Source of the DNA: Scleroderma bovista | Taxonomy: Eukaryota > Basidiomycota > Agaricomycetes > Boletales > Sclerodermataceae | Assembly (NCBI GenBank): GCA_037178675.1 | Contig: JAYMGJ010000137.1 | Location: 1-64,000, forward strand | DNA length: 64,000 bases | Direction: 5' to 3' | Shown: in pieces, positions 1,152 to 63,282 of the stretch | Numbering within the stretch: position 1 is the first letter of the stretch | How the letters are laid out: every line of letters starts with the position of its first letter | Translations under genes and position numbers: made by a program | The notes under the pieces: generated by a model | The model's database searches: none | Seen by the model: the letters and a program-made list of their open reading frames with translations, nothing else | Told to the model about the DNA's origin: nothing

Positions 1152-1594
1152 ACCTTGGACTTCCCCATGACTGTCTCTGGATGCGAAGCTCACAACACGA
1201 CCACTTTTGACCTTGAAATGCCTCATTGCAATACCTTGAACTTGACCAACTGCATTGGATTGGGATCCTGCGGTGTCAATCCACTCGGTCGGGACCGCGA
1301 TCAGGCACAAATGGAACCCTACCAACTATGGACTGAGATCTTGAGATTGGCACATAAGCGTTGTCAAAATGGACCCTGAGCAACATGGACCTTTCCATCT
1401 ATGGTAAGATCTTTGCAAATACCCATGGAATCTTACCAAATATTCCTCGGGCGCCGTATTGCATCTGCCCATACATGGTAAAGTAAGATCAAGGGTCCTT
1501 GTGACATGTGAAGAAAGTGACCACGTGAACTTCAATCAACAGGCCCGAATGTGTGCTGGAATTTGGAACTCGCTGCAAAGATTCCACCTCACCC

Positions 1595-4357: not shown

Positions 4358-4647
4358 AAGAAGCACCGAGAATAGATTCCTCGTATACAGATTGTAAATG
4401 TAGACAAATCTGTATATGTGGATATAGGATCATCATCACCAGGTGGCCATCGCTGTGTATCATGAATCATAACCGCAGTGAATGTAAGGTGAATATGACA
4501 ACATGACTGTTGAACACAACCGCGGTCATGATCAAACATGCAGTGTCCATCACATTTACCTTTAAACTCACAATCCTAGTGAATGTCATCTCACACACTG
4601 AAAATCATTCTTTCAAGTATTTAATACTAGCAGACAACCAAATGCAA

Positions 4648-6041: not shown

Positions 6042-6942
6042 GGTTGCTGGTGATGTATGAGACAATAGAGGGTTTGGGGTTGACAGGCCGCGATCATTTA
6101 TGTTAAGTACCACAGCTTATATAATATATTTCCCACCACTATGAAATGAAATGTTTAAAGGGTAAATAATGGTCGGAATCAACCATCTTATGTCATTAAT
6201 GGAATCTGGGGTGGTATTTGGGTACTGCATATCACTGTCAATTGATTCCAATTGTTCTATATTGTGGTAGGAATGAGATATGTATCAAAACAAAGCTTGC
6301 CAACCCATTGTAGCTCTGCATCTGCGTAAATACAGACAGTGAAACATGTTTAGCACACCCGCGGTCATGATTCCCTAAATAGATGTTGTGGGTACCATTT
6401 TCCTTGCCTTCCAATCTTCAATGTCTGCTGCGGGCATTGTATGCAATAAATCTTTGTGTCAATAGTGTTGCTTAGACTGGCTACCTGATCACAAATTTTC
6501 AATCATTGTTGTCTCTATTCTATTTGCTGCTAATCTTGCACCTGTGATACTGGTAAATCTGAAATACACTGGATCTTACCGCGGTCAATTCACTCCAACA
6601 ATCCATGTGACTGTCCATTCCATTTATACTTTGGTGATTAAATTTACACATTGATGTGGGTGCCTGACTAACTATATGGAGCATCTAATTATTACTACAT
6701 ACAGCTTCCATGGGTGTACCGCAACACTGGTGAACCTGGGTGACATACCATGCATGCGGTTGAAAGCCCACACGGAGATTATTAGCACGTGGTGTGGCAT
6801 TGAGTGACGTATCAATGCTGTCAGATTCAGTCCACTGGTGTGTGACACTCGCTGACATAATCATAATAAATATTCAACATACTGTGCGGCTTCCACACCG
6901 CAAACTTGTTTTCACTCCCACTCAGCTCATTTTCACTTCACT
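6042..6942. promoter_or_regulatory. Intergenic region between divergent Y1 and Z1
   Basis: No coding sequence seen in 900 bp. The region is AT-rich, with a TATA-like stretch at 6118-6130, and holds two perfect CCGCGGTCA motifs (6359 and 6579) plus a near match at 6088. It probably contains the promoters of both divergent genes. Confidence 0.4.
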
Positions 6943-42800: not shown

Positions 42801-43117
42801 GCGTATACCGCCGGGTCGTCTGGGTTCTCGCCAGGGTAGCATGTCGCAGCCAACCGTCCTCGTGCCCGCTCACTGAGCGGCTCACCAAAGTCGGCAGGTA
42901 ATTTACAAAATGGATACTTATATGGGTACCATTCCGACACTTCACTTTCAGCGGTGTCCGAAGACTCTTCGCCTTCGCTAGCATTTACGGGCGTCGCAGG
43001 GACGGTATCTGTTTCAGTTAACGAGTATTCGTCGCTTACTAGTTCAGGCAGGCCAATCATGTCGCCACCTTCATCATCGGGATCAAAAGGATCCATCAAG
43101 TTGGCATGTGAGCCCAT
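36818..43117 (-). pseudogene. Ty3/gypsy polyprotein (PR-RT-RNaseH-IN plus long extension), two in-frame TGA codons
   Basis: One minus-strand frame of about 2,100 codons broken only by TGA at 41,315-41,317 and 39,497-39,499; both sit where an Arg (CGA) is expected. Order: acidic N-terminus; two copies of a WYW(H/R)R motif (KWYWHRIGQ, RWYWRRVCQ); protease with DTGSLADF (near 42,100); RT with IDGQDAY and YLDD (41,160); RNase H with TDACGNGIGG and HEQELMAG, but VTNHKGL in place of VTDHKGL, so one catalytic Asp is Asn. Then the integrase zinc finger (H-x4-H, C-x2-C), D,D35E residues (GVDFVG, IVSDRD, TERANRT), and a chromodomain-like FEVLWTSGDKTWLPYGE. A further ~450 residues follow: Arg-rich, Cys-rich, then an ordered region and a basic GNKKGKGRSD tail. 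No ordinary Gag precedes the protease. Confidence 0.9.
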
Positions 43118-43480
43118 GCACCTGTGTAGGCCGTGTTATACGGTCAGCGGACGATGACAATCGGCCGTGCTACACGGGCTGGCGGAAGTGAGGCTTATGA
43201 CTAGAGCTTTGCCGTATCACAGGGGTCAGCCCCCGACAGCATTGTCACCAAGTGACAACGGTGGGCCCATGGCTCTGTTGTCATCACGGGGTAGGGTGAA
43301 AGTCTTAAGCCGGACAAATGGGTGTCGTCATGAAAATACTCGGGCTGAGAGGAGTAGCATACCAATAGAATAAGTGAGCCAGTACGCAATGGAGGCAGTG
43401 TGGTGAAATCTGACGGCAGCAATAACACCATAGTGAGCCGGTCAATCAGCATTGCGGCATGGTCAACAGTGCGGCAAAGT
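43118..43480. other. Possible remnant of the Ty3 5' region
   Basis: No LTR terminus (TGTGACG/CGTCACA) and no Gag frame is found between the pol start and the repeats at 43,520. The element is probably truncated at its 5' end, with the junction near 43,440-43,485 where the gtcaacactccggca-type sequence begins. Confidence 0.35.
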
Positions 43481-43519
43481 CAACACTCCGGCATGTTCAA
43501 TGAGAGATGTGCCGATGAG

Positions 43520-43680
43520 ATGTTGTGCCACTGATATGCAGTGCCGCTGATATGCGGTGCCGCTGATATGTGGTGCCGCTGATATGTGGTGCCGCTGATA
43601 TGTGGTGCCGCTGATATGTGGTGCCGCTGATATGTGGTGCCACTGATATGTGGTGCCGCTGATATGTGGTGCTGGGTGTT
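43520..43680. repeat. 16 bp minisatellite, left of the KDZ locus
   Basis: About ten tandem copies of gccgctgatatgtggt with point variants (tgcggt, tgcagt, gccact). Twelve of 16 positions agree with the minisatellite at 59,861-60,100 in the same orientation. Confidence 0.88.
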
Positions 43681-43799
43681 ATGTGTCGGCCGCATCTATT
43701 GCTGCATCAATTTAGTGCCGACGGTTCCTCGTGCCGGATCTTGGCCTAACGGTAGTTACTTAACACTATATGCACGGCGATACATCTATATAGAGGACA

Positions 43800-44940
43800 T
43801 AGTATCTAGGGCCTAATGGGTATACAGGGAGATCAACTTTGTGGCCCAACGCACTCAATGGGACACCTATCCACATGCCTTCCCAACTATATAGTTGTTC
43901 CCGCATTGAGGGCTTGTTTAATCCTCTGGGACACCCCATTCATGGCTTGTCACTTTAAAATGTACTTGCAAGGTTTGCCTGCATAGCTAGATAACACCTC
44001 TGCTAGGGCCTGCCCAATGCTATGGGATACCATGGCCATTGCCTGTCAGACTGAGCTGGGCGCACTGACTATAAATGATGCTGTCTCCAGGGCTTGCCCA
44101 GAGTTATGGGACACCACACCTGTGGCTAGCACCCCTTAAAGGTACAGTCTCTGCACAGCCCATTGGAATGCAAGGGACAATAGTTCCATGGCCCTTTGGT
44201 AAGAAAGGGACTCTGTTGTTACAGCCTGATCAAAGCCCGAAACACACTATTTCTGGCCTGCCAACAGAAATGGCAAACCATATTTAGGGCCTGATGCAAA
44301 GCACGGGACACTGGCACTGCAGCCCTCCTACTCACTCCTATTTGTTGGGCTCTATAATAGAATAGAGAACACTATATCCAGGGCCTCCTGCTCATATAGA
44401 TGATACGGCACCTGGGGCTGTTATGTAATCATGGGACACCATCATATGGGGCTTGACACATTGTGTGACACCACTTTAGCGGCGTGCCTTGGGAACTGCA
44501 GGAGGCGGGGCCTACTCTGCTACTTCTAGCCCCTTGGCCGCAATTCCATGGCTACCCTGCTGCTTTGGCCGCCATGCTGCTAACAGTCCTTCGGCAGCAG
44601 CGGCTATCCCTGGTTCTCTGGCCGCATTGCTGTGGCATACCTTTCTTTTGCCATGATACCGCGGCTGTACTTGTCATAGTGGAGGCCACCACTGCCACCT
44701 GGCCATGATTGGTTACAGCCATCACAGCCGCAAACTTGACGACCGGCATAAGGTATCAACTTGCGGCACCCATTGTATTGGAAGATGTGGACGACACCTC
44801 CACCCAGACATGTGCTATTCCCATTCATGCCGATGTGTTCCCTGTGTGATTTCTGCCTCATTGTTAACCTGGCCGGGTGTTGCAGCCGCAGCTCAGACTT
44901 TGGCCGGCAACATTATATCACATGTGTCGCTTTGGCCGAT
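43800..44940. repeat. Degenerate repeat region with no gene
   Basis: Loosely repeated blocks containing gggacacca and gcctgcc at 60-90 bp spacing, then a GCC/TGCCG-rich stretch (44,500-44,940). The open frames here are short and unsupported. Confidence 0.5.
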
Positions 44941-44996
44941 ATTTGATTAACCAATTATTGTTGTGATGAACATATATGTAGGTATTCATACAATGT

Positions 44997-45780
44997 TTAC
45001 CTACCACCCAAAGACTCCTCCCATTTCTGCCGCAATGCATTTGGTGCACGGGTTAGCATCTCAATGTCCTCCATCCTTTTTGCACAATGCTGCATCACCT
45101 CTATATGATATTTGAGGGCATTGTCCGAGCTCCGCAAGATATTGTCGCAGAAGTACCGTGCATTTGACAAGGCCTCGTCCGAGGTATATCCAACAGTGAG
45201 TAGAATGGTGAGCTTTCTATCGGCAACCTGGCAAAGCTTTAGTATCTAACACAACACGAATAAGGGAGCATACCAGGTCCACTGGAGAGAATGCCTCTGC
45301 CTCTGATACCATGTCCTGCAGTGGCCACGTGCTGTACCCTGCCGTACATGCACCATGGCCATTAACCCACCACGAGTTTGCCACTTGCAGCGTACTTGGA
45401 ACCTGGACTTCGGCGGCCTTGGCATGATAGACATTCAACTGTCACATTGCCGCATACAGTCTTGCCGGTGGCAGATTTTCTAGTACGACCATTCTGTGCA
45501 CCCTGCTCGCCATCATTGGCAATATCATCTTCGCACCCATAGCCTGGCATGCGGCAAGCACACGTTCTAAATTTGCCTGGGGGCTCATGAGTGTGTTAAT
45601 CAAATGTAATCATTCTCCACTTACCACTTCCCTTTGTACATTTGCATACCATTCAGCTGTGGCCAGCATCCCCTCGGGCTGTTGTTGAACTGTGTGCACC
45701 AACCGTCGAAAGCGGACTCCAATGTATTGCAATACCATGGACAGTTCGCAGGTTTCGCGCAGTTCGGATGTGTTATTCAT
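44997..45780 (-). CDS. Gene W: unknown protein divergent from the TET/JBP gene; one in-frame TGA
   Basis: Starts at ATG 45,778-45,780 (MNNTSELRETCELSMVL). Exon 1 ends QREV at a gtaagt donor; a 48 nt intron ends gagcccccag. Exon 2 reads ANLERVLAACQAMGAKM..., then TGA at 45,442-45,444, then QLNVYHAKAAEVQVPSTLQV and WPLQDMVSEAEAFSPVDL. A second intron (gtatgc...tgccag) joins in phase to VADRKLTILLTVGYTSDEAL and the end WEESLGGR. The TGA fits a CGA (Arg) to TGA change. Mostly helical, with a conserved-looking Trp/Gly/Cys core; no known family recognised. It shares a 275 bp divergent promoter with the dioxygenase gene, which suggests co-expression and membership of the same element. Confidence 0.6.
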
Positions 45781-46055
45781 GATTGATGGTTTGATGGCCG
45801 ATTCGCCCTAAGCCTTATAACATTCAGGTAATCAATGTTCTCATGGTCCACATGTCACCTGATGCATAATTACCACATTGTGCAACCGGGCATGTGTTGT
45901 TTCGCACCGGCCAATCGCCGATCAGCCTTGTTTAGTGGATCTAGCCGAGAATGGAATGTGTTGCATTGCCGTTTGCAAACAGATGTCTGCAGCTTGCCGC
46001 TCATCCCCCACTAAAATTTTTACTCCCCACATTGTCAAAAGTTGTCCTGTGTCCA
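45781..46055. promoter_or_regulatory. Divergent promoter between gene W and the TET/JBP gene
   Basis: 275 bp separates the two start codons. It contains several CpG motifs (ggccgattcgccc, accggcc, cgccgatcagcc) and a CAAT-like ccaatcg. No binding site can be assigned. Confidence 0.4.
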
Positions 46056-47330
46056 ATGGCCAATGCAAATGCTGTGCCATCCAACTATACTTTGTCCGAC
46101 ATCATGGCATCATATATGCAGTGCCGCTTCCTGAATGAAGCATTTCCAGACTTAAATTCCCCCACCCCGGAAACGCTTCTGTCCCTGCCGGTGGATGCAA
46201 CTGTAGCCATGAACCAAATTGTATCCACCATCACACAGGCATATCATAATCGGAGTGAGCCAATTCTTGTATAGTTAAATTATCCTTCCTTGATATCCAC
46301 TTCAGTTTCCTGCAGCATTGACTTGATTAGGTTGTCCGAAAGCCTCGGACCAATGCAATCCAGCACAAATGAGCAACAGGAGATTAGGGTCCTCCGTAGA
46401 CATCCTTCCTCTTTGACTGGAACCCTTTCCTGGCCCACCATTATTCTGGGAGAAGGTGACACAATTGCATTGTGGTATCTTCCCGGAGCTCTAGCTCCCT
46501 GCATCCAAGTATGGTATCATTCCACTCTCATTGTCCACTGTTGAGGCCTTTGTTTCTAGGAGCACATCGCGGCATCCATCGATTCACTTGCAGATCCACT
46601 GGAAGAGAGTATTACAAATCAATCATGGCGTACAACACACCAGTATTTCAAGGATGACATGGATATTTTCGGGTGCTTGGAATTCTCTCCGGCACAGCAC
46701 ATGCTCGGCCATTCTGTGAGTACCTTCTTCTTTTGACGATGCACTTGTTTGATCTTCTCTTCCCCTGCTTGCTAGACCCCCAATGACATTCCGGGGGTGT
46801 CCAAGGCTTTGGCCGGTCCTACTGGCTATCAATGGAGCAAGGATATATGTCTTCCGTCGGCCATACTTTCAGGTGTTCTTTCTATTATCCATCCGTCTCT
46901 ATACGATGCCGGCCACCTTGCCATGCAACGCTTGGATGACTGGGCGACTGGCCATGATCCCGGAATGCTGGCGGCACTTGAAAATTGGTCCACTGTCTTC
47001 ACCAATATCTCGCTAATTGTCAATCAAAGTACCCCCCTCCACAGGGACCCACACTCTCGAGCAGATTGGTATGACATGCTAGTCAGTGTCGGTAATTATG
47101 ATGATTGTGCACTGCACATTCCCAGTCTTGGGATTCAGGTATTGTACAATCCCGGCACTGTCGTTGCATTTTCCGGCTGGCTCTTTCGGCACGGCGTCAA
47201 CCTTGTTGACGGAGCGAGGTGCTGTTTGGCGTATTATATGAGGGATAATATTCACCATTGGTTGAGGGTGCCACGGCCTCTTGATTGGGTGACGCCAGAT
47301 AATGTCTGCAATGCACTGGTGAAGCATTGA
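46056..47330 (+). CDS. TET/JBP-type 2-oxoglutarate/Fe(II) dioxygenase
   Basis: Four exons (46,056-46,254, 46,306-46,508, 46,560-46,715, 46,776-47,330) join in phase to 370 residues with no stop. All introns are 51-60 nt, GT-AG. The C-terminal half has the double-stranded beta-helix signature: H-x-D iron ligands at about His275/Asp277 (STPLHRDPHSRADWYDML), the distal His at about 325 (FSGWLFRHGV), and the Arg expected to bind 2-oxoglutarate at about 334 (GARCCLAYYMRD). Upstream, YFKDDMDIFGCLEFSPAQHM fits fungal TET/JBP proteins. Family members oxidise 5-methylcytosine in DNA. In fungi these genes are expanded and linked to KDZ transposons, which fits the KDZ transposase 4.4 kb downstream. The activity and the substrate base are inferred. 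Confidence 0.78.
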
Positions 47331-47837
47331 ATAATTAGCTTCCTGATATGATTGTTTGTTGTACTAAAATGTAATTCTGATGGTATGTAGTCCAAATTTG
47401 TTGGAAGTAGTTTGTAGTAGATACTATCCGAACGTGTGTTGTGCCAATGGGATGTAGTGCTGCTCGGCGAGCCCAAAGTCGATTCCAGCATGATCACAAT
47501 GATCCGGCTTGGTCAAGTGTAAACATTCAACAGGGCGGCACATTCATCATTCTGGCATAGTCAACACTCCGGCAGGATCGGCATTCCAGCACTGCCCACC
47601 ACGCACCCTCACTCGGACATGACCGGCAGAGCAAGAAGTATTCCCGGGGGTGGCCAACGCGCATCAAGATGGAACCTACTGTCGACACTGAAATGATGAG
47701 AAGCTCACACGAGTTGCATCAGCCTTGAGGAGAAACTGTCGCCGACGAGTGGTCCATATGCACACACCTGCAGAAGGATTTGAAGTAGCTGGGGAGGAAG
47801 AGAAGTGGACACAGTGCAAAGAGAGGGATTTACTGTG
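47331..47837. other. Region 3' of the TET/JBP gene
   Basis: No complete gene. 47,545-47,600 has gtcaacactccggca-type repeat. 47,630-47,860 is a third, diverged copy of the sequence at 48,480-48,710, including a remnant cysteine motif in which one Cys codon reads Trp. Confidence 0.45.
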
Positions 47838-49600
47838 TGCTGTCCAGGTCGAGCACGCTCTGAGGTAGGACTGTGCTGGAATGATGACTGTGCCGGACTG
47901 GTAATGGTGCCGGAGTGTTGACTGGGCCAGACTAATGATGGTGCCAAAGGGTTGATTGTGCTGACGGAGTGTTGATTGTGCCGGCCTGTTGACTGCCGGG
48001 ATGTGGATCCTGCTGGAGTGTTGACTGTGCCGCAAGGTTGATTGTGCCGGAGTATTGATTGTGCTGGCCTGTCAACATTACGGCAGAGTCAACACTGCAG
48101 CACAATCAACCCTCCGGCACAATCACCATTCTGGCTCAACATTGTGGCAGAGTCAACCCTGTGGCACAATCAACCATTCAGCACATTCATCATTCCGGCA
48201 CAGTCAACAGTTCGGCACAATCAACAATTCAGCACTATCATCATTGTGGCACACATTGCCGGAAGCATCCTGACACACCACTACACAACAGCATGATTGA
48301 TGCTAGATTAGTTCACGCTGCCAGAATTATAATTGTGCCGAACTGTTGAATCTGCCGGAATGATAAATGTGCTGCACAATTACATGTGCCGGAGTACACA
48401 GCAATCGGTGATGTTCACTCCATGGATGCCATTGCCGTTGAGGCACCGCATGCCTTCACTCGGACAGAACCAGCAGAGCAAGAGAGATGTGATCGCAGCT
48501 ATTCCCGCGGGTGGTCAATGCGGATCAAGTTGGAACCGACTGTCGACACTGAAAATGATGAGAAGCTTGCAGGAGCTGCATCAGCCTTGAGGAAAAACTG
48601 TTGCTGATGAGTGCTCCATATGCACCTGCAGAAGGATTTGAAGTAGCTAGGAAGGAAGACAAGTGTACACAGTGCAAAGAGAGAGACTTACTGCAAAACC
48701 AGGTCGAGTGTTCGACCTGGACAGCACACAGTAAATCTCTCTCCATGCACTGGGTACACTTCTCTTCCTCCCCAGCTACTTCTACTTTTCTTCCTTCTGC
48801 TTCTGCAGGTGTGTGCATATGGACCACTCATCAGCGACGGTTTCTCCTCAAGGCTGATGCAGCTCCTGCAAGCTTCTCATCATTTTCAGTGTCGACAGTC
48901 GGTTCCAACTTGATCTGCATTGACCACCTGCGGGAATAGCTGCGATCACATCTCTCTTGCTCTGCTGGTTCTGTCCGAGTGAAGGCATGCGGTGCCTCAA
49001 CGGCAATGGCATCCATGGAGTGAACATCACCGATTGCTGTGTACTCCGGCACATGTAATTGTGCAGCACATTTATCATTCCGGCAGATTCAACAGTTCGG
49101 CACAATTATAATTCTGGCAGCGTGAACTAATCTAGCATCAATCATGCTGTTGTGTAGTGGTGTGTCAGGATGCTTCCGGCAATGTGTGCCACAATGATGA
49201 TAGTGCTGAATTGTTGATTGTGCCGAACTGTTGACTGTGCCGGAATGATGAATGTGCTGAATGGTTGATTGTGCCACAGGGTTGACTCTGCCACAATGTT
49301 GAGCCAGAATGGTGATTGTGCCGGAGGGTTGATTGTGCTGCAGTGTTGACTCTGCCGTAATGTTGACAGGCCAGCACAATCAATACTCCGGCACAATCAA
49401 CCTTGCGGCACAGTCAACACTCCAGCAGGATCCACATCCCGGCAGTCAACAGGCCGGCACAATCAACACTCCGTCAGCACAATCAACCCTTTGGCACCAT
49501 CATTAGTCTGGCCCAGTCAACACTCTGGCACCATTACCAGTCTGGCACAGTCATCATTCCAGCACAGTCCTACCTCAGAGCGTGCTCGACCTGGACAGCT
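47838..49600. repeat. Second palindrome (about 1.76 kb)
   Basis: Positions pair with a sum of 97,438 over most of the length: 48,042-48,296 with 49,142-49,396, 48,386-48,607 with 48,831-49,052, and the outer edges 47,838 with 49,600 (gctgtccaggtcgagcacg). The centre lies near 48,719 and is less well conserved. The arms contain cggcacaatcaac-type short repeats and a piece of a Z-like gene. Sequence just beyond 49,600 repeats 49,340-49,540. Confidence 0.88.
48386..48690 (+). pseudogene. Z-like gene fragment inside the second palindrome
   Basis: An open stretch with GDVHSMDAIAVEAPHAF and IKLEPTVDTENDEKL is followed, in a neighbouring frame, by a KCTQC-type motif with spacing C-X2-C-X6-C in one of the copies. 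This matches the first half of the Zn2Cys6-like cluster of Z1 and Z2. It is present three times (here, inverted at about 48,747-49,052, and diverged at 47,630-47,860). None is complete. Confidence 0.45.
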
Positions 49601-49768
49601 TGTGCCGCAGTGTTGACTCTGCCATAATGTTGACAGGCCAGTACAATCAATACTCCGGCACAATCAACCTTGCGGCACAGTCAACACTCCGGCAGGATCC
49701 ACATCCCGGCACAATCAACACTCCGTCGGCACCATCATTAGTCTGGCCCAGTCAACACTCCGGCACAC

Positions 49769-51078
49769 TGTCAAGACCGGTTCTCCTCGACGATCTTACT
49801 AGGAGGTCCAGAGGTGCAGGGAACTAATGAGGAGGTAAGTCCAGACACTAGTAGGTGCTAGTTAGTGCAGAGAGTCAAGTCCGGGTCAAATGAACGAAGT
49901 CCGGGCACTAGAGGAGCACAGGGAGTAAGTCCTGGTTTTTGCGGAGTAAGTCCGGACCGCGGGAAAGTGGTCCGGAGTTGAGCGCAGCTTGTCCGGAGCG
50001 AAGGACATCCCAGAGGTGGGATAAGTCCTGAGAGGTCTAGCGTCGAGTCTGGGACAGAGGTGGCTTTTGCCCTCGTGCAAGTAGGAGACTTGCTAGGATC
50101 GGACATAGGACCAAGGGGACGAGATAGGATGGAGGCCGGAGTTGGCCGGAGTTCAGGAGTTCAGATGAACAGGTGGATTAGGAGAGCATAATGGGTAGTA
50201 CAGAGTGGGGAGTATCTTAGTTGAGATTTGATCTAAGGAAACTACTAGGCCGGAGTATAGTAGTTTATATAATAAATGAGAACTAGGGTGAGTATATACG
50301 GTGACAAGTAAACACCTTAGTTGGGACAAGGGACAGAGCAGAAATGGACAGGAAAATAAACCAGGTACAAGAAAATAAAGCAGGGACAGGAAAATAAACC
50401 GGAGCGGAAGCAGACACGGGGAACTAGAGTTACAGGGACGACGGAGGAAAAGCAGAGACAAGGGAACTAGGTCGGAAGAGGACAGGTAAGGGTCAGAGGT
50501 GGACTTAACTAATGTTAAGTCCGGACCGATGTCCAGGACCGGAGGAAGTGGGACCGGAGGAAGTGCACGACCGGAGGAAGTGCACGACCGGAGGAAGTGC
50601 AAGAGCGGAGGGAGTGCACGAGCGGAGGGAGTGCACGAGCGGAGGGAGTGCACAGGTGGAGGAAGGGTGGAGTAGCCGGAGGAAGGTCCGGAGTTGGACA
50701 TGGAAATGTCCAAGGCCATTGGTGGACCTATCAGAGGAAGTGGAGCGGAACAGGAGCAGACCTGAGCTGGAGTTGGATGTACCAGCCGGAGTTGGGCTAC
50801 GTTGCAGACAAGGCTAAGGGAGTGGCCGGACTGAAACCGGAGTAGCGACTAGTGGTAGGTACAGGTCCAACATGGAGGAGTTAGACCGCGGATCTGTCTG
50901 TAGGAAGACAGGGGTTAGTCCTGAGGCGGAGATGGACGTAGTGACCGGAGTTGAGCTGGAGTGCAGCTATAGGGCTGGAGATGGCCGGACTAGATCCGGA
51001 GTTGCATCTATGCCTAAGGAGAGGTCAGGCGGGCCATGGTTAGACCGGAGTTGCGACTGGAAATGTATGGATATGACA
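49769..51078 (-). mobile_element. Solo LTR (1.31 kb) with 5 bp target duplication
   Basis: Starts TGTCAAGACC and ends GATATGACA on the plus strand, flanked on both sides by CACAC (49,764-49,768 and 51,079-51,083). Removing it restores the local repeat phrase cggcacac-tcaaccctcc. It shares an internal block with the LTR at 63,283-63,883 (aactagggtgagtatatacggtgacaagtaaac at 50,282-50,314, quoted in two parts: aactagggtgagta and cggtgacaagtaaac). It contains its own tandem repeat of about 17 bp (gtgcacgagcggaggga, 50,560-50,655). No internal region remains. Confidence 0.78.
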
Positions 51079-51751
51079 CACACTCAACCCTCCAGCACAG
51101 GCAACATTGCGGCTGAGCCAACACTCCGGCACAATCATCATTTCGGCACAATCACCATTCTGGCTCAACATTGCGGCAGAGTCAGCCCTCCAGCACAATC
51201 AACCGTTCAGCACATTCATCATTCCGGCACAGTCAACATTCCGGCACAATCAACAATTTGGCATCATCATCATTGCGGCACACGCTGCTGGAAGCATCCT
51301 GACACGCCGCTACACGACAGCATGATTGATGCAGTGAACTATCGCACATAGGTTATAGCTAGCTGTTGCACCGGCACACAATGGTTTCTAGCTGCGGTAG
51401 TTGATTGTTATCAATGCCAGCAGTCGTGGAACTACGAGGACCACGGCCGGTAGGCCCATGATTGCACCTCTTCCCTTGGCAGATTTATATTTACATATTG
51501 GCCGAAGGGTGTGCATGCATGGCATTCAATTGCTGCTGGTACATGGCTTTTCCATTCCGGCTACCAGCGAATCTACATGCCACTGTTCATGACCCTCCCA
51601 TTCCATCATCCATTCATTCCAAGGTATGCACCCCATAAATACCTTGCAGTTGCACCTTGTTTTCTCCACTAACAGCCACTCGATGATCCATTTTAAATAT
51701 GTCCTCTTTGCATACCATATAGTGGTATTTGATGCCAATGGTCAATGCCAA
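51079..51751. other. Repeat-derived and 3'-flanking sequence of the KDZ transposase gene
   Basis: 51,079-51,345 resembles parts of the second palindrome (cggcacaatcaac phrases and the gcatcctgacacgccgctaca block). 51,346-51,751 may hold a last small exon and the 3' end of the transposase gene; a minus-strand stretch near 51,650-51,700 (DHRVAVSGENKVQLQ) is a candidate, not confirmed. Confidence 0.35.
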
Positions 51752-54700
51752 TCATACACAACCAAGTCTACCATACATTTGACATTGCTTTGCTGCATAG
51801 CATGCTCTCCCCATCTCTCCGCTCATATTAGCCTCCTCCTTTTGATCTCTCCAAAGTGTTTCCCTATATGAAAGAAATTGTCTTGTCCAGGTGGCTTCAC
51901 ATGTCAATAGTTTTACCTCTTCGTCCCACCTGTCTTGCAATGCTTTCGCCCTCAACCAATGCACCCAGTAAACTATACATGTCAGCCGGTGTTAACATGA
52001 GGAGCAATCATCTTACATTCAGACATCCAATCATTGACCTCTGTATCCTGCGGCACATCCATTGTCCAAAACCAGGCCAAAGTGTCATCCCTATGACCCC
52101 TTGCATTTGGGTCAGCAATGGTTGCACTGATCTTTGGGTCTTCTCTCCTCAACATTTTGTATCGGTTCAATGTGTTGCCGCTTGCATTCAATGCTATCAT
52201 TTGTTTCCGGCACTGACGATATATTGCCGCATGCCGCTGCACTTTCACATCGGCACTACCCACCTTCCCCCAGGCCCTCGTAGTCATATTGTATGTCCCG
52301 GCATGTCTGACATCGGTCCGAAAGATGACTGCCTTGTGTGCCAGCGAAACCCTTAGTTCATGTAGAGCATCGTTGGCCTGACCTTCCCTCAATCGTAACT
52401 CCTGATCCACCATGGTTAAAAGCCCCAACCTATCGGCTTGCTGCATCCCCAGGTACGACAGCAAGGGCAGTACCACAGCATCCGAGTAGTTGGGATCTTG
52501 TGGGTGGAATGTGTCTGAAAATACATCTTCACCATCACCTTCATCAATGTCCGTTGTGGAAATGAGATTATCTGAGATGTCCTCATTCCAATCTTTGCCT
52601 AGAAATTGGGAAGCTGATTCACAGAGCCGATCAATTTGCATCTGCAGGCAGTCCTGCCGGCAGGCAATAGACAACCTTTGTGTTTCCGTCGCCCTTGCAT
52701 GAATGTGGCGGACATCTATGGCCAAAATAATTTGTGATTCTTCGGCTTTCAATACCCTTGCCATCCATGTTGCCGCCCCACGCATACAACCATCTGGTCC
52801 CTGATTACTTATAATATCCATTTCGATCGACTTAGTTGTTTGAGCTGTCATTATAATATGTCAAATTCGTTTGAAATCAGCCAAGCAAGTAAATACCTTT
52901 TTCCAGCTGCACCTCAAATATGTCCATTGATTTTGGATCAGTAACCCTATTCTCCAAAGCCGATTTCTCTTGCTATGCCCAAAGCTCATGCAACTCGACC
53001 GGAACCCTTGTATCAAGCTCCGCAAATGCTCCTTCCGCGGACATCAGTGCCTCTTGAGCATTCTTCAATTTTCTTTTCAGGGCGATGGCTGTGCAATATG
53101 TCATCGGCATACTTCACCCAAAATCTGCAAGATATTGTGATACCACTCACACATCCGCACCATCTTTAAGAAGTTGTTGTCATTCATTTTAAAATCAAGC
53201 AGCTCCTGTCTATGCGGCGTTGCCATTCCACGGGCCGATGGCGAAATGATGTTAAGAGAGGACCAGAGAGTCTCCATAATTTCACCATTGATGCGGCCTA
53301 CACCAGAAATGAAATTGGGAGCATATCGGGTGAAACATTCTGCCTTGTGACCATGTACATGCCAGAGCCCAATGCTAGGTTGAATCCATAGCCCAGGTGG
53401 TAAGGATATAAAATTGTTTGCTTCTAGCCAGCACTTTAGGTTTTTGCTGTATTGGCAATTGATGTCATAAAAGGTTATGACTTTTTGTTGCAGATCCATC
53501 CCATGTTGCATGGCATGTGCCAGAGCATAATCCATATTTACCTGCCTATCTTCCTGTTAGGGTGGAATGCATGCAACATGTCGGCACATACTGCTCTCCC
53601 TTCTGAAAGTCAACCATTGCATGGGGTACAAAGCATCCATGCTGCGCACATGCACACCCGCCAATTCCAGTAGATGCCAGCTGATTTCTTTTAGCATTTG
53701 CCTGGTTTACTGCTCGATGGTTGCTACAGTCAGATTTCTGTGAATTCCATTACAATGCTGAACCATATTGTAAATATGTGCAATCACAAACCTCGACCCG
53801 GTTCAATGTTCCGGCCAGATAATCCTTATATTCCGGCATTGTAACCATGAATCCCATTCCGTCCATGAGCCAAACTTCATTAGCTGAATTCTTTGGCCGC
53901 ATATGCTCGGCCTTGAAGTTTCCATCCATCACGATGGTCCTAGAATATTTCCACCTATATCATGCAGCTGCTCAATAAGTACAAGTAAAAATAAAACATT
54001 ACTTACTCCGAGAGGTCTACATCTTCACTGGATGGAATGTTTACTCCTGGTTGTGGGCATGCCGGACAGAACAGCACCAATTCCCCCCTCTTGGGATCAG
54101 GAGACCCTGGATGAAAACCTTGCCATTTCAACAGCTTCAACAGCCTCCACATCCTCGACACCCTGAGTAGCTCTCTGTATCTGTTCTTGGATCAGTGTTG
54201 GTGGTGTCATCGGGTCCTTAATATCATGCTTTGAACTCACCGGTACAAGGCCAGGAAATGCATTGGATGTGACTCGCCGAAGCTTGCTGTAATAATTCAT
54301 GCCAGATGTGCCGCACTCCACATTATCCATAATGAAGTCATCCAATACTTGGAAGGTGAATACAGTTCTAGGTTCCTTTGTAGTTGCCGGGAAGAGTCCT
54401 GCTTTGACCAACTGCAGATGTGAAGCTCCTGCATCTGGACAGTTACAATACCTCACATCGCAAAAATGTACCCCAGATGTATGCACTACAATCAGGCAAG
54501 ACCTGTCCATTCCTCCAGAAAGATGATGGGGTCTTGGTTGGTCCTGAATATCCTCCCATTCATCCTCAACATCACCAGCAATGTCCTCACCATCCATCCC
54601 ACCATTCGGACACGGATCCCCACCATGGCCGAGGTGTACCACCAACCCAGCCTTCTAAATGAGTTGTTGCTGTATGCCACATAGAATTGATGACTCACCA

Positions 54701-55274
54701 GTCGTAACGATGATTCCTCAAAGAATGTACCGTTCCATTGGTCCACCTGGTGGAAGGGCCGCAACTTGTGTTCCTTTCTGCAACAGGAACTGCAGAGCAA
54801 GGGCCGGTGAATGCATTCGGCACATCTGTACGTGCCATCTCCTTGACACAACATGCAGACCCTTGGGTCAGGGGGTGCCTCCATGTCCAGAAGGACCTGG
54901 AGGTACCTCTGCTTGTATGGCAACCATGCCAATAAGTAACTGTCCTATTATGCCTTCAGGAGGACATGGCAAGTGCAGGATTCGAATAAATCACACACCT
55001 GATTCTTTGACACACCTGTTCTCTTTTGGGGTGGAAGATCATCCATGGAAAGGTATGGCTGGCCATCATCTGGAAACAGTTGGGATTGTTCTAATCCTAT
55101 AGATGCTGACTGGGTTGGAGTGTCATTCGAAGGAGCTTTTCCATGACGGGCCTTCTTTCGGGGAGTTGCCTTCACCATCTTATCAATAGATCCCTTCCTT
55201 GATTTGAATGCCTGCCATGTTACATGGACCACCGGAGTAGAGCTACCAGCAGGTTGTATCTTGGACTTTGCCAT
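51752..55274 (-). CDS. KDZ (Kyakuja-Dileera-Zisupton) transposase with N-terminal CxC cysteine domains; in-frame TAG in the C-terminal part
   Basis: Starts at ATG 55,272-55,274 (MAKSKIQPAGSS). Exon 1 is basic; exon 2 holds the CxC2-type cysteine cluster (VCMLCQGDGTYRCAEC, LLCSSCC) and WNGTFFEE. Then come LGHGGDPCPNG, HFCDVRYCNCPDAG, the FCPACPQPG motif (about 54,060), and the nuclease core: first Asp in VMDGNFKAEHM (53,914-53,932), CNHRAVNQAN, GCACAQHGCFVPH, second Asp in FYDINCQYSKNL (about 53,460), GLWHVHGHKAECF, and Glu in GRINGEIMETLWSSLN (about 53,280). The C-terminus continues to HWLRAKALQDRWDEE and a stop at 51,752. The introns examined join in phase. A TAG at 52,973-52,975 (LWA*QEKS) follows the catalytic core. 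The KDZ family is a eukaryotic cut-and-paste transposase common in Agaricomycetes. Confidence 0.85.
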
Positions 55275-55692
55275 GAGTGGTATCTGATGAGGAAATCCCT
55301 GCACAAAGTCTCCCACATTGTATCTCACTGAAGCCTCATTGAAACAGCACAGACAGTGATCAGAAAGGGATCTGTGGATCTGCCGATTTGGATCTAGCTT
55401 TTTTAATATGGACTTGAAGATCAGGCACCAATGCAAAATCCCATATATGGTGGCCGCTACTGCATTAGATCCAAAGTTAAAGTCCAGAAATAGCATCTTA
55501 GCTGCCGAACAACATAGCCGGCCCCAGAAGTAGCTAGCTCACCAATGCATTTTCCAAAAGAAGGCAGCAGGGAGGAATTGAAGACTAATTGACATGGGAG
55601 AAACAATAGCTTGGGAATCCTTCAACAAAGTGTCGGGGACTTTTCTAGCACAGCACCACTCAAAAAATATCAAAGTCTACTCAACATACAGC
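55275..55692. promoter_or_regulatory. Divergent promoter between KDZ transposase and gene X2
   Basis: 418 bp separates the two starts. It contains a CCAAT-like motif and TGCCG motifs; no gene is supported here. Confidence 0.4.
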
Positions 55693-58094
55693 ATGGCCCG
55701 CAATCGTTCCTCCAGCAGATCTATGGAGAATCCTGATACAGAAGATGAGCAAGACAATTCCTCTGACTCGTCGGGCCCAGAGGCACCACAAAATGTGGTA
55801 AAAACCAAACTCCGGGATGATGAGGTCGAGGTCCTTGAGGAAGCCTTGGAAGACTGGAAGGCAGCGGACAGCAACCAAAGGAAAGGTATGAAGAATGCCA
55901 TGAAGGCAAAAATCAAAAATCTCCCTGCCAATAGCACACTCAAAGGACATGAATGGGAGAAGAAGAAAAAAGTGCGCCCCATTTCCATAACTTCACATGG
56001 ACTACTGATGCATCAGTGATATCAGGCAATTAAAAATTGGTTGTATAACCACAGCCGAGCCTGTGCCTGAAAGGCCCTAGTAAAGTATGGACGTAGGTGG
56101 ACTGCCAGATCAGTCATAATGAAGTCGAAGAAAAAAGAAATTGAGGCCGAATTCGAACAGGCCGGAATTGCCCAAGGAAGCACAAGCATGATTAAAGGCT
56201 ACCAAAAGGTGGTAGGAAGCATCATGGGGAAGCTCACCCAGGAGGAAAGGGATGTTGCGGCGAAGCAGGCTGATGAATGGAACGAGGAGCAGCTGCCGGC
56301 AGAGGTCCAGGCCGAGTAAGTTTGTCATGTTGTCTTGACAATTATTCATCTGCAAACAGAATGGCCGAGACAAAAGGCCGACAATATGTCAAACAGTTTG
56401 CGCAGGAAATGTGGCGGCAGTGTGGGATGAGGGTGGTTGTGATGGCGGCATGGAAGGGCCGGAATGGTCAGCCCATGATGGGAATGTATGTCGCTTCTCA
56501 CTTGTGGTATTTGTATACTCACATTCACAGGCATGACTTTAATTCGGCATTGGGACAAGGGAAGACCTTTGTCGATTGGGACAACATCAAGCACCACTGG
56601 GATGCCTATGCACAGCAGGCCATAGGAGGGGAAGAACACGATGATAGCGATGATGATGCCAGACCGACGATCTGCCGGAAGAAAGGGCAGAAGAGGCCGC
56701 AAACTGTTTTACCAACAACGGAAGATGGCACACCAATGATTCCGATCATCCTCGATATGCAAGCATTGGAGCAAAAGGATATTATGAGGACTTTTGTGAC
56801 ATGGCATTATCGTAAGTTCTGCCTTGTAAATGGAGAAAGAATTGACCCCTTGCCGCAGGCAAGGCATGCGGCAAGCCAAGTGCCAGTGTTCCTTGGGCTG
56901 CCATCCATGCAAAGACCAGTATCTACATATCATCTGGGTATCTGCCACGGCATTGGGAGTTCAAAGAGCCGACCCGGCTCACAAATCAGGAGGTTACCAA
57001 GGTACTGGAATTCTGGCGGGACAGGCAAGTGACAGATCCGGAAGATGTACTGACATTTCGCAAATGGAGAGATATGGATGGTGGATTACAAGATCCAGTA
57101 TCAGATTGTGAGGACTCAGTGGCCGGAATGATAAGTGGAGAAAAGCCGCCCCTGGAAGGTTAGCTCTGAATACTTTTATCAACTTGTTTTGACTGGTTCA
57201 AAGAACATGCGGCACCGGATGTGGAACTCGCAAACAGTCGGAAGAGACGGCGCACAATGGGTATGGATCTTTCAACCCTGTTATACAACCATTGACATGC
57301 ATAAAAGAAGAGGCCCCAGAGGAGAGGGAGTCCAGTGCAACAAACAAAAACCGATGCCGGTCAAACCGGGATGATGGTATGCCCCATACATATTCCAAGC
57401 ATTTGATCCTCCTACATTTGGAACATCCCTGTCAGCAAGCCATACAACGCCCATTGAACAGCCTGGTCAGTTCCTTTGAATATTTTTGTTGTCAGAATAT
57501 GAAGTTTATATATAGAGGATGACTCGGATGGACATAATGCAAGATCATCTAAGGAAAACGGTGTGTGGTGCTTGGTTTTGTTATGCCGGTGGCAACATCT
57601 TCACGAAGAGCATCAGCGGCACTGACGGCACGGCAGCCGGCCGAACCTAAACAGCAAGGTGGGTATCAGTCTCAATTACTTGGAAATGGCACATATTCTC
57701 ATATAAGAAAAAGCACATATGGATCCCGGAAACGTCATGGCTAACGGACCGATGAAGCCAAAGCCCCGTGTTAAAAAGAGCACAGCCGATGTGCCGGTGG
57801 AATGTAAGTCTGCCTATTTCAATATCCATTTACCAATTCCGACAAATGATAGTTGGTGAATTAACTATGGATTCCATTGGCAACACAAATGGGATGGAGG
57901 GTGGTCGATCAGGGGATGATGATGTCACACACTCTGGAGGAAAGGGGAAGCGGGCTGCCAGCACACGCCAGATTGCCAGGGCTCAAAGTGTCAATGCTGT
58001 TGCCGGGCCGAGTCAACTGGAACGGCAAAGAAGGCAGCCAAAGCGGCCAGATGCCGATGTCCCTATGCCCAGCCCAAAGAGACGCCGCAAATAA
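55693..58094 (+). CDS. Gene X2: second X-family gene, one in-frame TGA
   Basis: ATG at 55,693 (MARNRSSSRSMENPD). It has the same block order as X1: an acidic/helical domain ending HEWEKKKK at a gtgcgc donor; AIKNWLYNHSRA; KYGRRWTARSVI; ADEWNEE; QCGMRVVVMAAWKG (56,420-56,460); HDFNSALGQGKTFVDW; ILDMQALEQKDIMRTF; VPWAAIHAKTSIYIS; and VLEFWRDRQVTDPED (57,008-57,050). Short exons follow, and a final exon with QRRQPKRPDADVPMP ends PKRRRK at 58,094, a nuclear-signal-like tail. TGA at 56,068-56,070 interrupts ACA*KALVKYG, where X1 reads TQKKKQLIKYG. Identity to X1 is clear but moderate. It is divergent from the KDZ gene and convergent with Y2 (77 bp). Confidence 0.72.
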
Positions 58095-58171
58095 TATATC
58101 TGTAGAATAGTTGTATTGTCAAATTTTCAATTTGTTGTCCTGAAAGATTTTATTGCGGCACTACTGTAACA

Positions 58172-59424
58172 CTACAGCTTGGAGGGATCTAATACTACCA
58201 CATCCTCAGGGTGATCGGCCTCAATTATGTCACCATTCTTGCCAAGTCGGGCTGACCTAGCCAACATATCCCGCACATTCGCCAACATTGCTCTCCGGCA
58301 CATTTCCGATCTCCACAGCCTGGCAGTGTCGAGCAACGTATTTGCATAATGAATGTAGGCCGCGATGATAGGGTGGTCAAGGCCAGCATCGAGTGGGAGT
58401 AGGTCGGGCAAGTGCCTAGGAGGGACGGATGTAGCGACTTGCCTTGCAGAGGCCACTAGATGACAACTGATCAACTGATACTATGGATGAAGCCCAAGAG
58501 AGACTTACATGAAAGCGCATCATTCATGAATGGATCCAAATCCTCATGCAATGCGTTAATCCTGTCCACCATTTCAAAATAATCCACTGGATGATTGTTA
58601 AATACACATAATTCCCGCAGTAATACTGACTTACCATCCTCTGCATGCACGTGTTCCCGGAATCGTGCATGCGATCCAGATGCAGCCTCAGGAGATGATT
58701 CTGCCTCCATTGGGGAGGTGGGAATCAGCTGGCTTGATGCCGGGCTGGATGGTGATGCCAGGCTGAATGGTGATGCAGGGACTGAGGATGCCGGCATCGA
58801 TGGGGATGACGTCCCAATACGTGGCACGTGCACTGGAAAGGGCGGGATCCATGCGGCCATTGTGGGGGACGGCGACGGTGGCATCCATGCTTGCGGTTGG
58901 GTCCCTTGGGATGATGGCCAAACCGATGGGGTAGTTGGCATTGCTGCCGGGGGTGGCATTGACGCCTGTGACCGAATGGTGAGGGTAGATGGCACATTGG
59001 ATGGACCTGCAGCGATTGGAGGAGATGGTGGCATCCAAGCCTGGGATCTAGTCGTGGGGGTTGCTGCACGCATCTCGTGTGCTGAGGGGCCAGGGAGGTT
59101 AATCGGAGCTGATTGCGAGTGGGCCGGTAACTGATCGTTTGCCGCTGTTGCTTGTCTGTTGCTGTCCACAGACATTGCATCCTTGTTCCTCACAGACACA
59201 TTTGCGCTCGTTTCACCTGTGCGCATCCCGTGGCGTGGGGGAGAGGGTGGCATCCAGTCCATGCTTGATGGCAGGTGTTCATCGACAATGGATGGAGGCG
59301 GGTGCCACACTGGCAGTGCAGGAATGGCTGATAACGATGTCATGCAGATCAGCTCAGAGGAGAGAAATTACTCACTCAATTTCCACAGACTTGCGCTATC
59401 AAATCTGACAGACTTAGGTGGCAT
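58172..59424 (-). CDS. Gene Y2: W-x-P-P repeat protein, homologue of Y1
   Basis: ATG at 59,422-59,424 (MPPKSVRFDSASLW). A first intron ends ttatcag. The long second exon has repeated W/M-x-P-P units (MDWMPPSPP, QAWMPPSPP, QASMPPPAA, QAWMPPSPS, AAWIPPFP), then a Ser/Pro/Ala region and FNNHPVDYFEMVDRINAL. A third exon, joined ALS|LASARQVATSVPP by a tctag acceptor at about 58,451, gives the conserved C-terminal domain (HYANTLLDTARLWRSEM) and stops at 58,172. The frame is open throughout. N-terminal VRF, the W-x-P-P repeats and the C-terminal domain all match Y1. Function unknown; the orientation relative to X is the same as in the Y1 cluster. Confidence 0.72.
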
Positions 59425-59688
59425 GGCGGTAGCAAAGATGCAAGTTGACAAGATGGAATTGACATGGAATGGAAATCACAATTGAATGATTATATAATAA
59501 TGGTTTCCATATATAGTTCATCTATCTCACCACTGGAAAGATTGGCATAGTTGCGTAGTGCCAATAGTGGGCAAGTGCCGATGTTATACAAGTGCCGATT
59601 GTATTATGAATGTATGTCCTGCCACTGGGGTGTGTGCCGACTGTCTACCGTATGCATGTGCCAATGGAATGCTGTGCTGATTACAGTA

Positions 59689-60435
59689 TGTTACCCCTAT
59701 CAATACCTAATGCCGCCATCCACGGCAATTATATATACTCTTGCTATTTATGTATATCGGTAACATCGAAGAATTACTCCAGAGGTAAATCTTGCATTTG
59801 CCGGCGAGAGATTGGGATAGTATGTACATAGTGCCAATAGTGTGCTGTGTCGATAGTGTGATGTGCCAATAATATGTTGTGCTGATATTATGTTGCGCCG
59901 ATCCTATGTTGTGCCGATATTATGTTGCGCCGATCCTATGTTGTGCCAATCCTATGTTGTGCCAATGTTATGTTGTGCTGCTCCTATGTTGTGCCGACGT
60001 TATGTTGTGCCGATCCTATGTTGTGCCGATCCTATGTTGTGCCGATCCTATGTTGTGCCGATCCTATGTTGTGCCGATCCTATGTTGTGCCGTGCCGATA
60101 GTGTCTTGTGCCAATGGTTTGCAAGTGCCAATGTTATGCTGATGGTGTGTTCCAGCGGTGTGGATGTAATGCTGCTGGTGGTTGTGCCGATTGTATGCCA
60201 TATGTATGTGCCGATGCAGTGCCGAGTGGATGTTCGCCCTTGTATGTTCTGCTGATTATGTTGTGCCAACAGTGGATTAAAGTATGTTGCTCCTTCCAAT
60301 ACTTGATGCCGCCATACACGGCAATTTTAGTTACATCTGCAGGACATATCTAGCCTCCTCTTGGTATTCATGTATATCAGTGATGTTGAAAAATTACTCC
60401 ACAGGTAAATCTTGCATGTGCCGGCGACATATTGG
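59689..60435. repeat. Diverged direct duplication flanking the minisatellite
   Basis: About 59,689-59,815 and 60,281-60,430 share tgccgccat-cacggcaatt, atgtatatc, gaa-aattactcca, aggtaaatcttgcat and tgccggcga in the same order and orientation; the second copy has a ~35 bp insertion. The minisatellite lies between them. Confidence 0.75.
59861..60100. repeat. 16 bp minisatellite, right side of the KDZ locus
   Basis: About 14 tandem copies of gccgatcctatgttgt with variants; several units read gccaat where others read gccgat, as expected from CpG decay. Related to the 43,520 minisatellite (12 of 16 positions). Confidence 0.9.
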
Positions 60436-60618
60436 CAATGTGTTCATGGCTGTGGTTGAGACCATTACTGGCATGTCTCTGACAGAGTTCGCAGGCTGCA
60501 TCAATGATTCACAAGGACAACTCTACATCCATAAATATACTTTACAATGCAATGTATATGGTATACATGGAATAGGAATCAGAAATTGTACAAAAGATGT
60601 AGGTATGATAAAAGAAAA

Positions 60619-62565
60619 TTAGTCCGTTTGCATTTGCACACCAGCATCGTGCCTGCCATCGGCATCGGAACTCCCAATCTCCATATCGGATGCCGGCGTC
60701 CCAACATCTCCATCTTCCGGCGGGCTGACCTCGATTGCCGGAATATTGCCGGTCTCCATTGTTGCGGGCACTTCATCACAAATCGCTGTGTCAACAACAC
60801 AATGTTGTGATCAGTAGCACATAGCTTGGTAATTGACAGACTTACCGTTTGGTGGGGCCCAGTCGTAGCTATCACCGGTTGGCTTGCTGGCACCCCTTTC
60901 ATTGACCAAGCCTGGAGTTGCCACCTCAAGACTTGAGGCATTGTGGGTGCCGGTCGGCTCGTTCGAGCCATGCCGGGATGGATTGCCGGATGACGCCATT
61001 TCTTCCAGCATAGTGGTAGGTGCTAGTGCCAATGGGCTTGGCGGACTGGGGTGAGCGCACTGCGAGACCTCGGCACATGTTGAGTCAGATGCCGGCTCTG
61101 TCAGTGCGAATGCCAGCTGCGATGCCGGACGTTGAAGGTGGGATGGTGTTGGGAACATCTGTTCCCACATTGCTTCAACCACCTGCAGTAAGCTGGCGAC
61201 TTCTCCGAGCGCGACGGCCAACCTGTCATTTGCTTCATCCACCTTTCATTCCATTTCAGCCTGCTTTTCCCTCAAATGGACAACCTCCTCCTCGAGATCT
61301 TGTACATTGGAGGTATTTGTACTGTCTCCCAGTGTTGTGGGAGGGTTCGTGCCACTGCCGGCGGCTGTTGACGATGGACTTGCCGTCCTCAATGTCTTCC
61401 CTAGCCATGCTGGAGTATTGATCAGTACCCCATCAAAAACTGCATGGAATATCGATAGAAATGATATTAAATGGTTTGAATAATGAATGACTTACCTTGT
61501 TTCCTGGGCGGATTGGCCGCCGCTGGTGCCGGGGTCTGACGTTGCCTTTTGAACGCTGTGATCTTCCTCGATTGAGCATTGAGGGCGCAGATGGTGAGCG
61601 CTGATGTGGTGCCGGTTTCCTCGGTGCTTGTGAGTGCAACCTTGACCTTGCTCTGACTGCCGTCATCATGCTGCATGCAATCTTGCTGCAACAGCATTGC
61701 CAGCAAGCACGGCCTGGGTTCGCTGCGCACCGTCGATCCTGCTGTACGCACTTGATGCACCGATCCTTGTCATCCACCCACTCATAGCCTGCGTCTGGTG
61801 TCTGCATGTTGCGAATGTTTGGCCTTGGTCACTTTGGCCGTGGTTGCGATGAGCCTTCTTCATCGTCACCGTCGCTGTTGATCGTTGTGACCGATTGGGC
61901 ATGCTTCCTCAGCTTGCGACTGCGACTGCGGCCCCTAGGCACTTCATCATCCTCGATGGCACCGCTTCCTTCTGGCACTGCTTGTGAGTCCTCAGTTTCG
62001 CTGGGCTCACCTACTTGGCCACAACTGCCTTGCACCTCCGTCTCCTTTACCCCCGATGGTCCTGCCACTGCATTGTTCCCCGACGGCTCTACTGCTCTCC
62101 TCTTTCCCTTGTCCACCTTCTTCTGCGGCTTGCCTAGTTGGAACCAGGGATGGTCCCGGATATTGTGGTCGGTGGTGTTAATGATGTCCGGGAAGTGAGG
62201 CCACTTCCCTGTCGACAGGATCACCTCTGGTGCCTCCATAAACTGGTCAGCAGCAACAATGATAGTCGGTATAATGAATCCTGCAGGTAAGTCCTGCAGG
62301 ACATTCTTGACCCGATGCTATCATATCCTAATCAGTGAGTTGATTGATTGCAGATAAAATTTCCACGCACCACCTGGGCCCAGATAGTTGACACTGCTTC
62401 CGACCATACACCCTTCTCCCGTGTGCTTCTCAAGCCATCAATCCGGCCTTGAATTATTTCAGTGGCCTGGGCGACAACTTCTTCTGCAGTGAGGGACGTA
62501 GCCGTTGACACGTCCTCTTGAATGGATGAGGCGGAGACGAACTGAGAACCTTCTGAAGTTGCCAT
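60619..62565 (-). CDS. Gene Z2: Zn2Cys6-like cluster protein, homologue of Z1, degenerate
   Basis: ATG at 62,563-62,565 (MATSEGSQFVSASS). Exon 1 ends TIWAQV at the same position as Z1. The next exon begins HRVKNVLQDLPAGFIIP after a tatgatag acceptor, like NRVREVVGNLPRGFNIP in Z1. The cysteine array (about 61,670-61,770) has the same spacing, C-X2-C-X6-C-X7-C-X2-C-X6-C. FDGVLINTPAWL, a coiled-coil-like segment and an acidic tail ending HDAGVQMQTD follow. Two in-frame TGA codons (61,829-61,831 and 61,246-61,248) break it, and the phase of the intron before FDGVLI suggests a further 1 nt frameshift. Function as a DNA-binding protein is inferred from the cysteine pattern. Orientation relative to Y is reversed compared with Z1. 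Confidence 0.68.
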
Positions 62566-63282
62566 ATAGACTGTAAGGATGTGGAAATGGTAAAGCAGTG
62601 GTTGAGGAGAGGAAGAACTGGGTCCAATTGCCATGCGGCCTGGAGGATGTTCAACGTATTATATAAGCATTTCACACCACAACATGTTTGCATTGTGGTC
62701 GCACACCAAAGTGGACTAAATCAAATATAGGTTAATAATTCAGCCACAAGTCCGACCAATCATTGTCCTGACAATTCAGCTAATGAACCACACTGCCGCA
62801 TTTCATATTGCATGGTGGCCGCATTTCTATTGCTTGTGATTGGCTGTCACAGTGCATTGTCCCATCACAATAACAAGGGATCTCAGATCGGCATTATGAT
62901 TGGGCTTTGCAGTCGCCTTATTTTGGAGTTTGTCTATCCGTGGCATGTGATCTGACATGCTTGTGTTTAACAAGGAGCCTCAGTTATAGAAAGTGATTTC
63001 AAAGTGAGCAGCCTGCCAGCGCCGGCTCATCTAGCACTGCCATCTCTCGGGGAACAATCAATGCGGCATGTATTAACACAGCTGCAGCTTGAGAAAGGCA
63101 TCAAGGCCGCATCTTGGTCATTGTGGTATGGCCATCATTAATTTACTATCACTTACACCATTGTTGGCACCCCCACCCATTCGGCACTTTGGTTTTTTAC
63201 CACCCACCGCTCAACTACACACAAAATTGACTAGTACAAAATTTGTTTTATACCACTCGGTTAAAAGACAACAAAGTGTTTG
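62566..63282. other. Upstream region of Z2 and probable right flank of the KDZ element
   Basis: No gene is supported. Includes the Z2 promoter (TATA-like tattatataag at 62,659) and scattered gccgcat motifs. A terminal inverted repeat was not recognised. Confidence 0.35.

Follow-up and report, generated by a model that had tools for sequence, protein, structure and literature searches.

The question raised by one stretch of the Scleroderma bovista genome (the first 64 kb, hereafter the window, of the 74-kb contig JAYMGJ010000137.1, or C137) is whether a KDZ transposase gene, a gene for a TET/JBP-type dioxygenase and three companion genes, here called X, Y and Z, travel together as one transposon, and what the companions might contribute to it. 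Searching the 51.8-Mb genome, assembled in 850 contigs, we found that the five genes lie in conserved order within one mobile unit, and that this unit is a DNA transposon of the KDZ superfamily, probably of the cut-and-paste kind, approximately 15-21 kb long and present in dozens of copies. The features of the window copy are collected in Table 1.

Ends of the element and target-site duplications

The left boundary is exact: 26 of 40 scored matches begin at the base corresponding to position 43110, the other 14 (the window copy among them) lie within 5 bases of it, and the alignment of the window copy to a copy on contig C150 places it there as well. In all 14 copies that we read, the element begins with GAGCCC and the flanks are unrelated. 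The right end was located on contig C342, where CGGAAAC stands immediately to the left and again immediately to the right of the element, and was read from this and other copies. Copies having both ends run from GAGCCCATGCACCTG to GCAGGTGCATTATGTG, giving an element bounded by 5'-GAGCCC...ATGTG-3'; an exact search of the genome for the 13-base right terminus gave 126 occurrences, against 0 for a reversed control. Perfect 7-bp target-site duplications (TSDs), for which a chance match of the flanks is expected about once in 16,000 per copy, surround 5 of 15 two-ended copies: C342 (20,042 bases), C216 (19,417), C727 (18,570), C19 (15,601) and C207 (5,217). In C342, C216 and C727 one pair of ends and one TSD enclose all five genes.

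The first-pass annotation had drawn the locus at 44997..62565; that interval does belong to a single copy of a KDZ element, but the left end lies 1.9 kb further left. The terminal repeats and target duplications that it had proposed as a check were recovered in part. No matching 7-bp TSD was present in 10 of the 15 copies checked (C150 and 9 of the 13 further two-ended copies), and the inverted repeat is subterminal, with 86% identity between its 35-bp left arm and a repeat that spans bases 31-65 counted inward from the right end of C342.

Similarity of the window copy to its sister copies on C126 and C595 extends to 63263, and its own right end beyond that point appears to have been lost or interrupted. 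The right-terminal 13-mer has no C137 entry among the places listed, which run in contig order, and a search for the right terminus joined to the window copy's left-flanking 7-mer as a single string found nothing. Two candidate ends were discarded: position 62938, with GGCATGT as the TSD, since C126 and C595 share sequence beyond it, and position 87891 of C150, where that copy carries 572 extra bases.

Two of the TSD-bearing copies are reduced. C19 has no KDZ gene among the 150 listed KDZ matches, and C207 is only 5.2 kb long; both are possibly non-autonomous derivatives that were moved in trans.

Linkage and gene order across the genome

Genome searches returned at least 151 matches for TET, 166 for KDZ, 150 each for X and Z, and 98 for Y; the tallies that follow were counted among the matches listed. 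We scored linkage on 131 X matches, leaving out second pieces of one locus. TET lies within 16 kb of X in 87 of these (about 9% would be expected under random placement), Z within 16 kb in 98, and Y within 12 kb in 84. A KDZ gene lies within 8 kb in 82, and in every one of the 82 it is upstream of X and divergent from it. The arrangement of Y is equally regular: 75 of 95 Y matches have an X within 6 kb, always on the opposite strand. Neither KDZ nor TET was listed in range of 32 of the 131 X matches, 28 of which have Y or Z; short contigs or the lower-bound nature of the listing may explain these cases.

Seen from the transposase, 70 of the 150 listed KDZ matches have both TET and X nearby, 13 have TET only, 12 have X only and 55 have neither (Fisher p 1e-16 for co-occurrence of TET and X, computed on copies that are not independent). 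The 55 form a second large KDZ set, which includes 33 of the 35 best-scoring matches.

The order of the genes holds between subfamilies. The window's own TET family (79-100% identical) has 65 matches, 40 of them with X and 24 arranged in full as T+ K- X+ Y- Z- (T for TET, K for KDZ, signs for strands). Diverged TET copies (53-64% identical) number 81, of which 44 have X; in 30 of these TET and X lie on opposite strands, and the complete arrangement seen most often is T- K- X+ Y- Z+, found in 10 copies. The T-K-X-Y-Z succession has therefore been kept, and the strands of TET and Z have been switched, between the subfamilies. The earlier proposal that W, X, Y and Z are accessory genes of one element is supported for X, Y and Z by TSD-bounded copies, linkage (scored in this one genome) and order; W was not identified.

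The KDZ and TET/JBP genes

Both genes belong to the families to which the first-pass annotation assigned them. PF18758 matches the transposase, as modelled from its exons, at 139.4 bits (cut-off 26.6, E 1.8e-40, positions 5-217 of 217), and a CxC2 match at 86.4 bits (cut-off 27, E 1.8e-24) is linked to it. The spliced model contains MDGNF, YDINCQY and NGEIMETLW, which would hold the putative catalytic D, D and E. The TET gene faces the transposase gene, and its product matches Pfam Tet_JBP (PF12851) at 59.8 bits (cut-off 34.9). It also matches Coprinopsis CcTET at E 2.9e-32, in an alignment that shows HRD (the HxD motif), the distal His and the Arg. In PMC12730594, AG-type TET/JBP enzymes are defined by Gly or Ser at position 331 and Asp at position 337 of CcTET; Ser and Asp align to Gly331 and Asp337 here, with numbering counted along the chain. 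Judged by these aligned residues, the dioxygenase is a CcTET-like enzyme of the AG type.

Companion genes X, Y and Z

Gene X is divergent from the transposase gene, the two modelled starts being separated by about 100 bp, and has homologues named from Scleroderma, Pisolithus, Melanogaster and Suillus. Its product looks like a multi-domain protein of DNA-binding type. The C-terminus looks like the GTF2I repeat of vertebrates, a likeness on which fold, profile and genome-wide scan agree, all below formal cut-offs: the best match of PF02946 to an X homologue is 22.9 bits, under the cut-off of 27, and a match with E <=10 is obtained for 8 of 47 homologues. In an hmmscan of these 47, which drew in 40 families, GTF2I came first with its 8 members, while most of the families shown had one. 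By fold alone, as predicted from the homologues, the central part resembles an HMG box and the N-terminal part a homeodomain. Iyer et al. (PNAS, 2014) reportedly described KDZ elements with additional proteins, including one with a divergent HMG domain, and the HMG-like part of X presumably corresponds to that protein. The GTF2I-like and homeodomain-like parts, Y, Z, the ends of the element and the genome-wide linkage may go beyond that description. Other candidates for X were set aside: DUF4317 (5 of 47 homologues, best E 0.015) and E3A (five chains at E 0.27-0.28, from alignment A1 against solved structures) were judged to be chance, and TFAM, MEF2 and others appeared as low-probability Foldseek rows.

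A search with the Z protein found 11 metagenome proteins and nothing else. The Z model misses the frame of a cysteine cluster whose spacing is that of the six-cysteine Zn2Cys6 pattern; Pfam Zn_clus gave no qualifying match for Z. The downstream exons of Z could be a separate gene.

Table 1. Features of the S. bovista window (positions in the window; strand where given)
Feature	Position	Strand	Remarks
TET-bearing KDZ transposon, window copy	43110..62938	+	left end exact; right end apparently lost or interrupted
Left terminus	43110..43124	+	GAGCCCATGCACCTG; read from element copies
Subterminal inverted repeat, 35 bp	43140..43174	+	30 bp inside left end
Tandem array	43509..43672		16-bp unit, TGCCG core, ~10 copies
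Subterminal direct repeat	43710..44177	+	473 columns, 71% identical to stretch near C342 right end
TET/JBP dioxygenase gene	45951..47330	+	model exons 45951-46254, 46306-46508, 46560-46715, 46776-47330
Palindrome, 1.76 kb	47839..49599		17-bp TGTGCCG-bearing repeats; between TET and KDZ 3' ends
Nested insertion, ~1.3 kb	49770..51078		carried by window copy, lacking in C150
KDZ transposase gene with CxC2 cysteine cluster	51752..55496	-	exon model approximate
Gene X	55594..57163	+	divergent from KDZ; exon model approximate, probably ~20 residues short
Gene Y	58172..59424	-	Pro/Ser-rich, five WxPP motifs, conserved C-terminal region
Tandem array	59862..60092		16-bp unit, TGTGCCG core, ~14 copies
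Gene Z	60619..62634	-	exon limits approximate; model misses frame of cysteine cluster
Six-cysteine cluster of Z	61664..61774	-	C-x2-C-x6-C-x7-C-x2-C-x6-C
Second, diverged X, Y, Z set	1529..8557		same window

Repeat arrays

The non-gene DNA of the element is filled with TGTGCCG arrays, which bring to mind the targets of anti-silencing proteins in plants. Among the regions counted, the 14-base motif is confined to the left array, which has only the TGCCG core in common with the others. The palindrome, on which TET and KDZ converge with their 3' ends, varies between copies, and read-through transcripts over it would form long hairpins.

Conservation and methylation

X, Y and Z have been conserved as proteins over the long term: between subfamilies synonymous divergence (pS) is 0.66-0.82, near saturation, against nonsynonymous divergence (pN) of 0.35-0.47. 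We dropped pN/pS inside the young family as sole proof of selection after a CpG-aware test, and used the between-subfamily comparison instead.

The element looks methylated. Among 24 distinct TET-end sequences from young copies (27 of 30 loci kept), the 249 rare changes include 160 transitions at 234 CpG positions versus 26 at 917 other C/G positions, and the CpG observed/expected ratio is 0.57 in the element versus 0.93 at 18.6-43.1 kb of the window. Such a pattern is expected from deamination of 5-methylcytosine (5mC). To compare elements with and without TET, we took 28 pairs from eight TET-less KDZ loci (one of which, L003, lies 11.6 kb from a TET fragment): 25 pairs had no match, L003 and L004 were identical, and L006/L007 (65% identity, ratio 1.7) were excluded as too diverged. 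The CpG bias in the one usable pair is 28.8-fold; in the TET-bearing pairs it is 18.5-28.4-fold in six of seven, the seventh having no other transitions. Because the TET-less pair shows the same bias as the TET-bearing ones, there is no visible sign that TET protects the element carrying it, and a brief action of TET during mobilisation is possible.

Relation to described elements

The closest lineage described is Kyakuja, although we do not file the element there. In the sections of Kojima 2025 (PMC12730594) available, TET-bearing Kyakuja of Agaricomycetes combine a KDZ transposase with an AG-type TET/JBP gene and have 7-bp target duplications, all of which our element shares along with a 3' end of TG. 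The two Laccaria Kyakuja families have 5'-CA..TG-3' termini, whereas the termini here are 5'-GA..TG-3', in agreement at the 3' side only; we class the element as a TET-bearing KDZ transposon most like Kyakuja. The same sections describe no further genes in Kyakuja, to which our element adds X, Y and Z, subterminal repeats and TGTGCCG arrays, and mention a third protein for Harbinger families. KDZ1 of Cryptococcus neoformans (PMC12810828), about 11 kb long, likewise has a KDZ transposase with a cysteine cluster, but as far as the passages found go it has 241-bp terminal inverted repeats and 8-bp TSDs, and no TET or companion genes are mentioned. The words KDZ and Kyakuja are absent from the passages found of a Pisolithus paper (PMC10066745).

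Two further systems offer partial likenesses. The VANC protein of VANDAL elements in Arabidopsis acts in an anti-silencing system whose targets are tandem repeats differing from one related element to the next (PMC5735166). A putative element-encoded protein with tandem-repeat targets would work alike, by analogy, and the fungal element, unlike VANDAL, has a TET enzyme. The TFII-I family carries GTF2I repeats, and in GTF2IRD2 these stand with a fused hAT transposase (PMC10641963, PMC9900109, PMC8155576). Mammals too, then, link GTF2I repeats with a transposase, and the C-terminus of X is similar in predicted fold and profile; X differs in having a single GTF2I-like domain, below the Pfam cut-off, in a fungal transposon gene. 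TFII-I, after which the domain is named, is called vertebrate-specific in PMC9900109, and the presence of such a domain in a fungal transposon would broaden its known range. In the parts of the literature surveyed we found no description of X, Y, Z or a fungal GTF2I domain, which is not proof of absence.

Proposed mechanism and alternatives

As an overall explanation, we think it probable that the element is a five-gene KDZ transposon in which TET works beside DNA-binding X and Z proteins and an adaptor, Y. The steps that we infer are given in falling order of confidence. The KDZ protein would cut and join the element ends. TET would oxidise 5mC (possibly also 6-methyladenine) on element DNA, permitting expression or cutting. 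X would be co-expressed with the transposase and act as a multi-domain DNA-binding protein, with Z probably a second. X or Z may bind the TGTGCCG arrays or the subterminal repeats and, so bound, either bend and assemble the ends for transposition or recruit TET and transcription factors. Y may be the adaptor linking the partners. A TET enzyme coupled to a DNA-binding-like protein and dense short-motif arrays provides concrete candidates that are testable in a heterologous host.

The most serious competitor, which we hold to be possible though short of likely, treats X, Y and Z solely as transposition factors, that is, architectural, end-binding proteins of a transpososome, and leaves methylation to TET alone. 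It draws support from the position of X, close to and divergent from the transposase in all linked cases, from the HMG-like and homeodomain-like folds, which would fit DNA bending, and from the large subterminal repeats at both element ends. Against it, X is found chiefly beside KDZ genes of the TET-bearing lineage, and since 55 of 150 listed KDZ matches have neither TET nor X nearby, KDZ transposition as such seems not to need X. Because X keeps mainly to TET-bearing KDZ elements, we lean slightly to a dual role for X and Z, in transposition and in aiming TET.

A bolder version of the five-gene reading is unlikely in its entirety. It would make the element a self-contained anti-silencing machine, a fungal counterpart of VANC with its own enzyme, in which X and/or Z read the TGTGCCG arrays and, through the adaptor Y, steer TET exclusively to the element; and it would further derive the vertebrate GTF2I repeat and the transposon domain from a common source, which might itself have been a mobile element.

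It is quite improbable that the three companions were captured from the host or ride along as passengers that do nothing for the element. The 32 X matches without listed KDZ or TET are in keeping with such an origin, and after allowing for CpG hypermutability there is no clear selection on X and Z in the young family. Passengers would sit poorly, however, with a gene order retained across subfamilies whose TET proteins are 53-64% identical, or with synonymous change near saturation while nonsynonymous change lags behind; and no single-copy host homologue stood out among the matches listed, although no separate search was made for one. That separate transposons came to lie together by inserting into one another, as the nested insertion and disturbed right end of the window copy might suggest, is scarcely credible given the full order in 24 young-family and 10 diverged copies and given that in C342, C216 and C727 a single end pair with its TSD encloses the whole set of five genes.

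Elsewhere in the window, just to the right of a palindrome, two long open reading frames at 18051-19559 (+) and 21036-22382 (-) form a diverged inverted pair with 61% protein identity.
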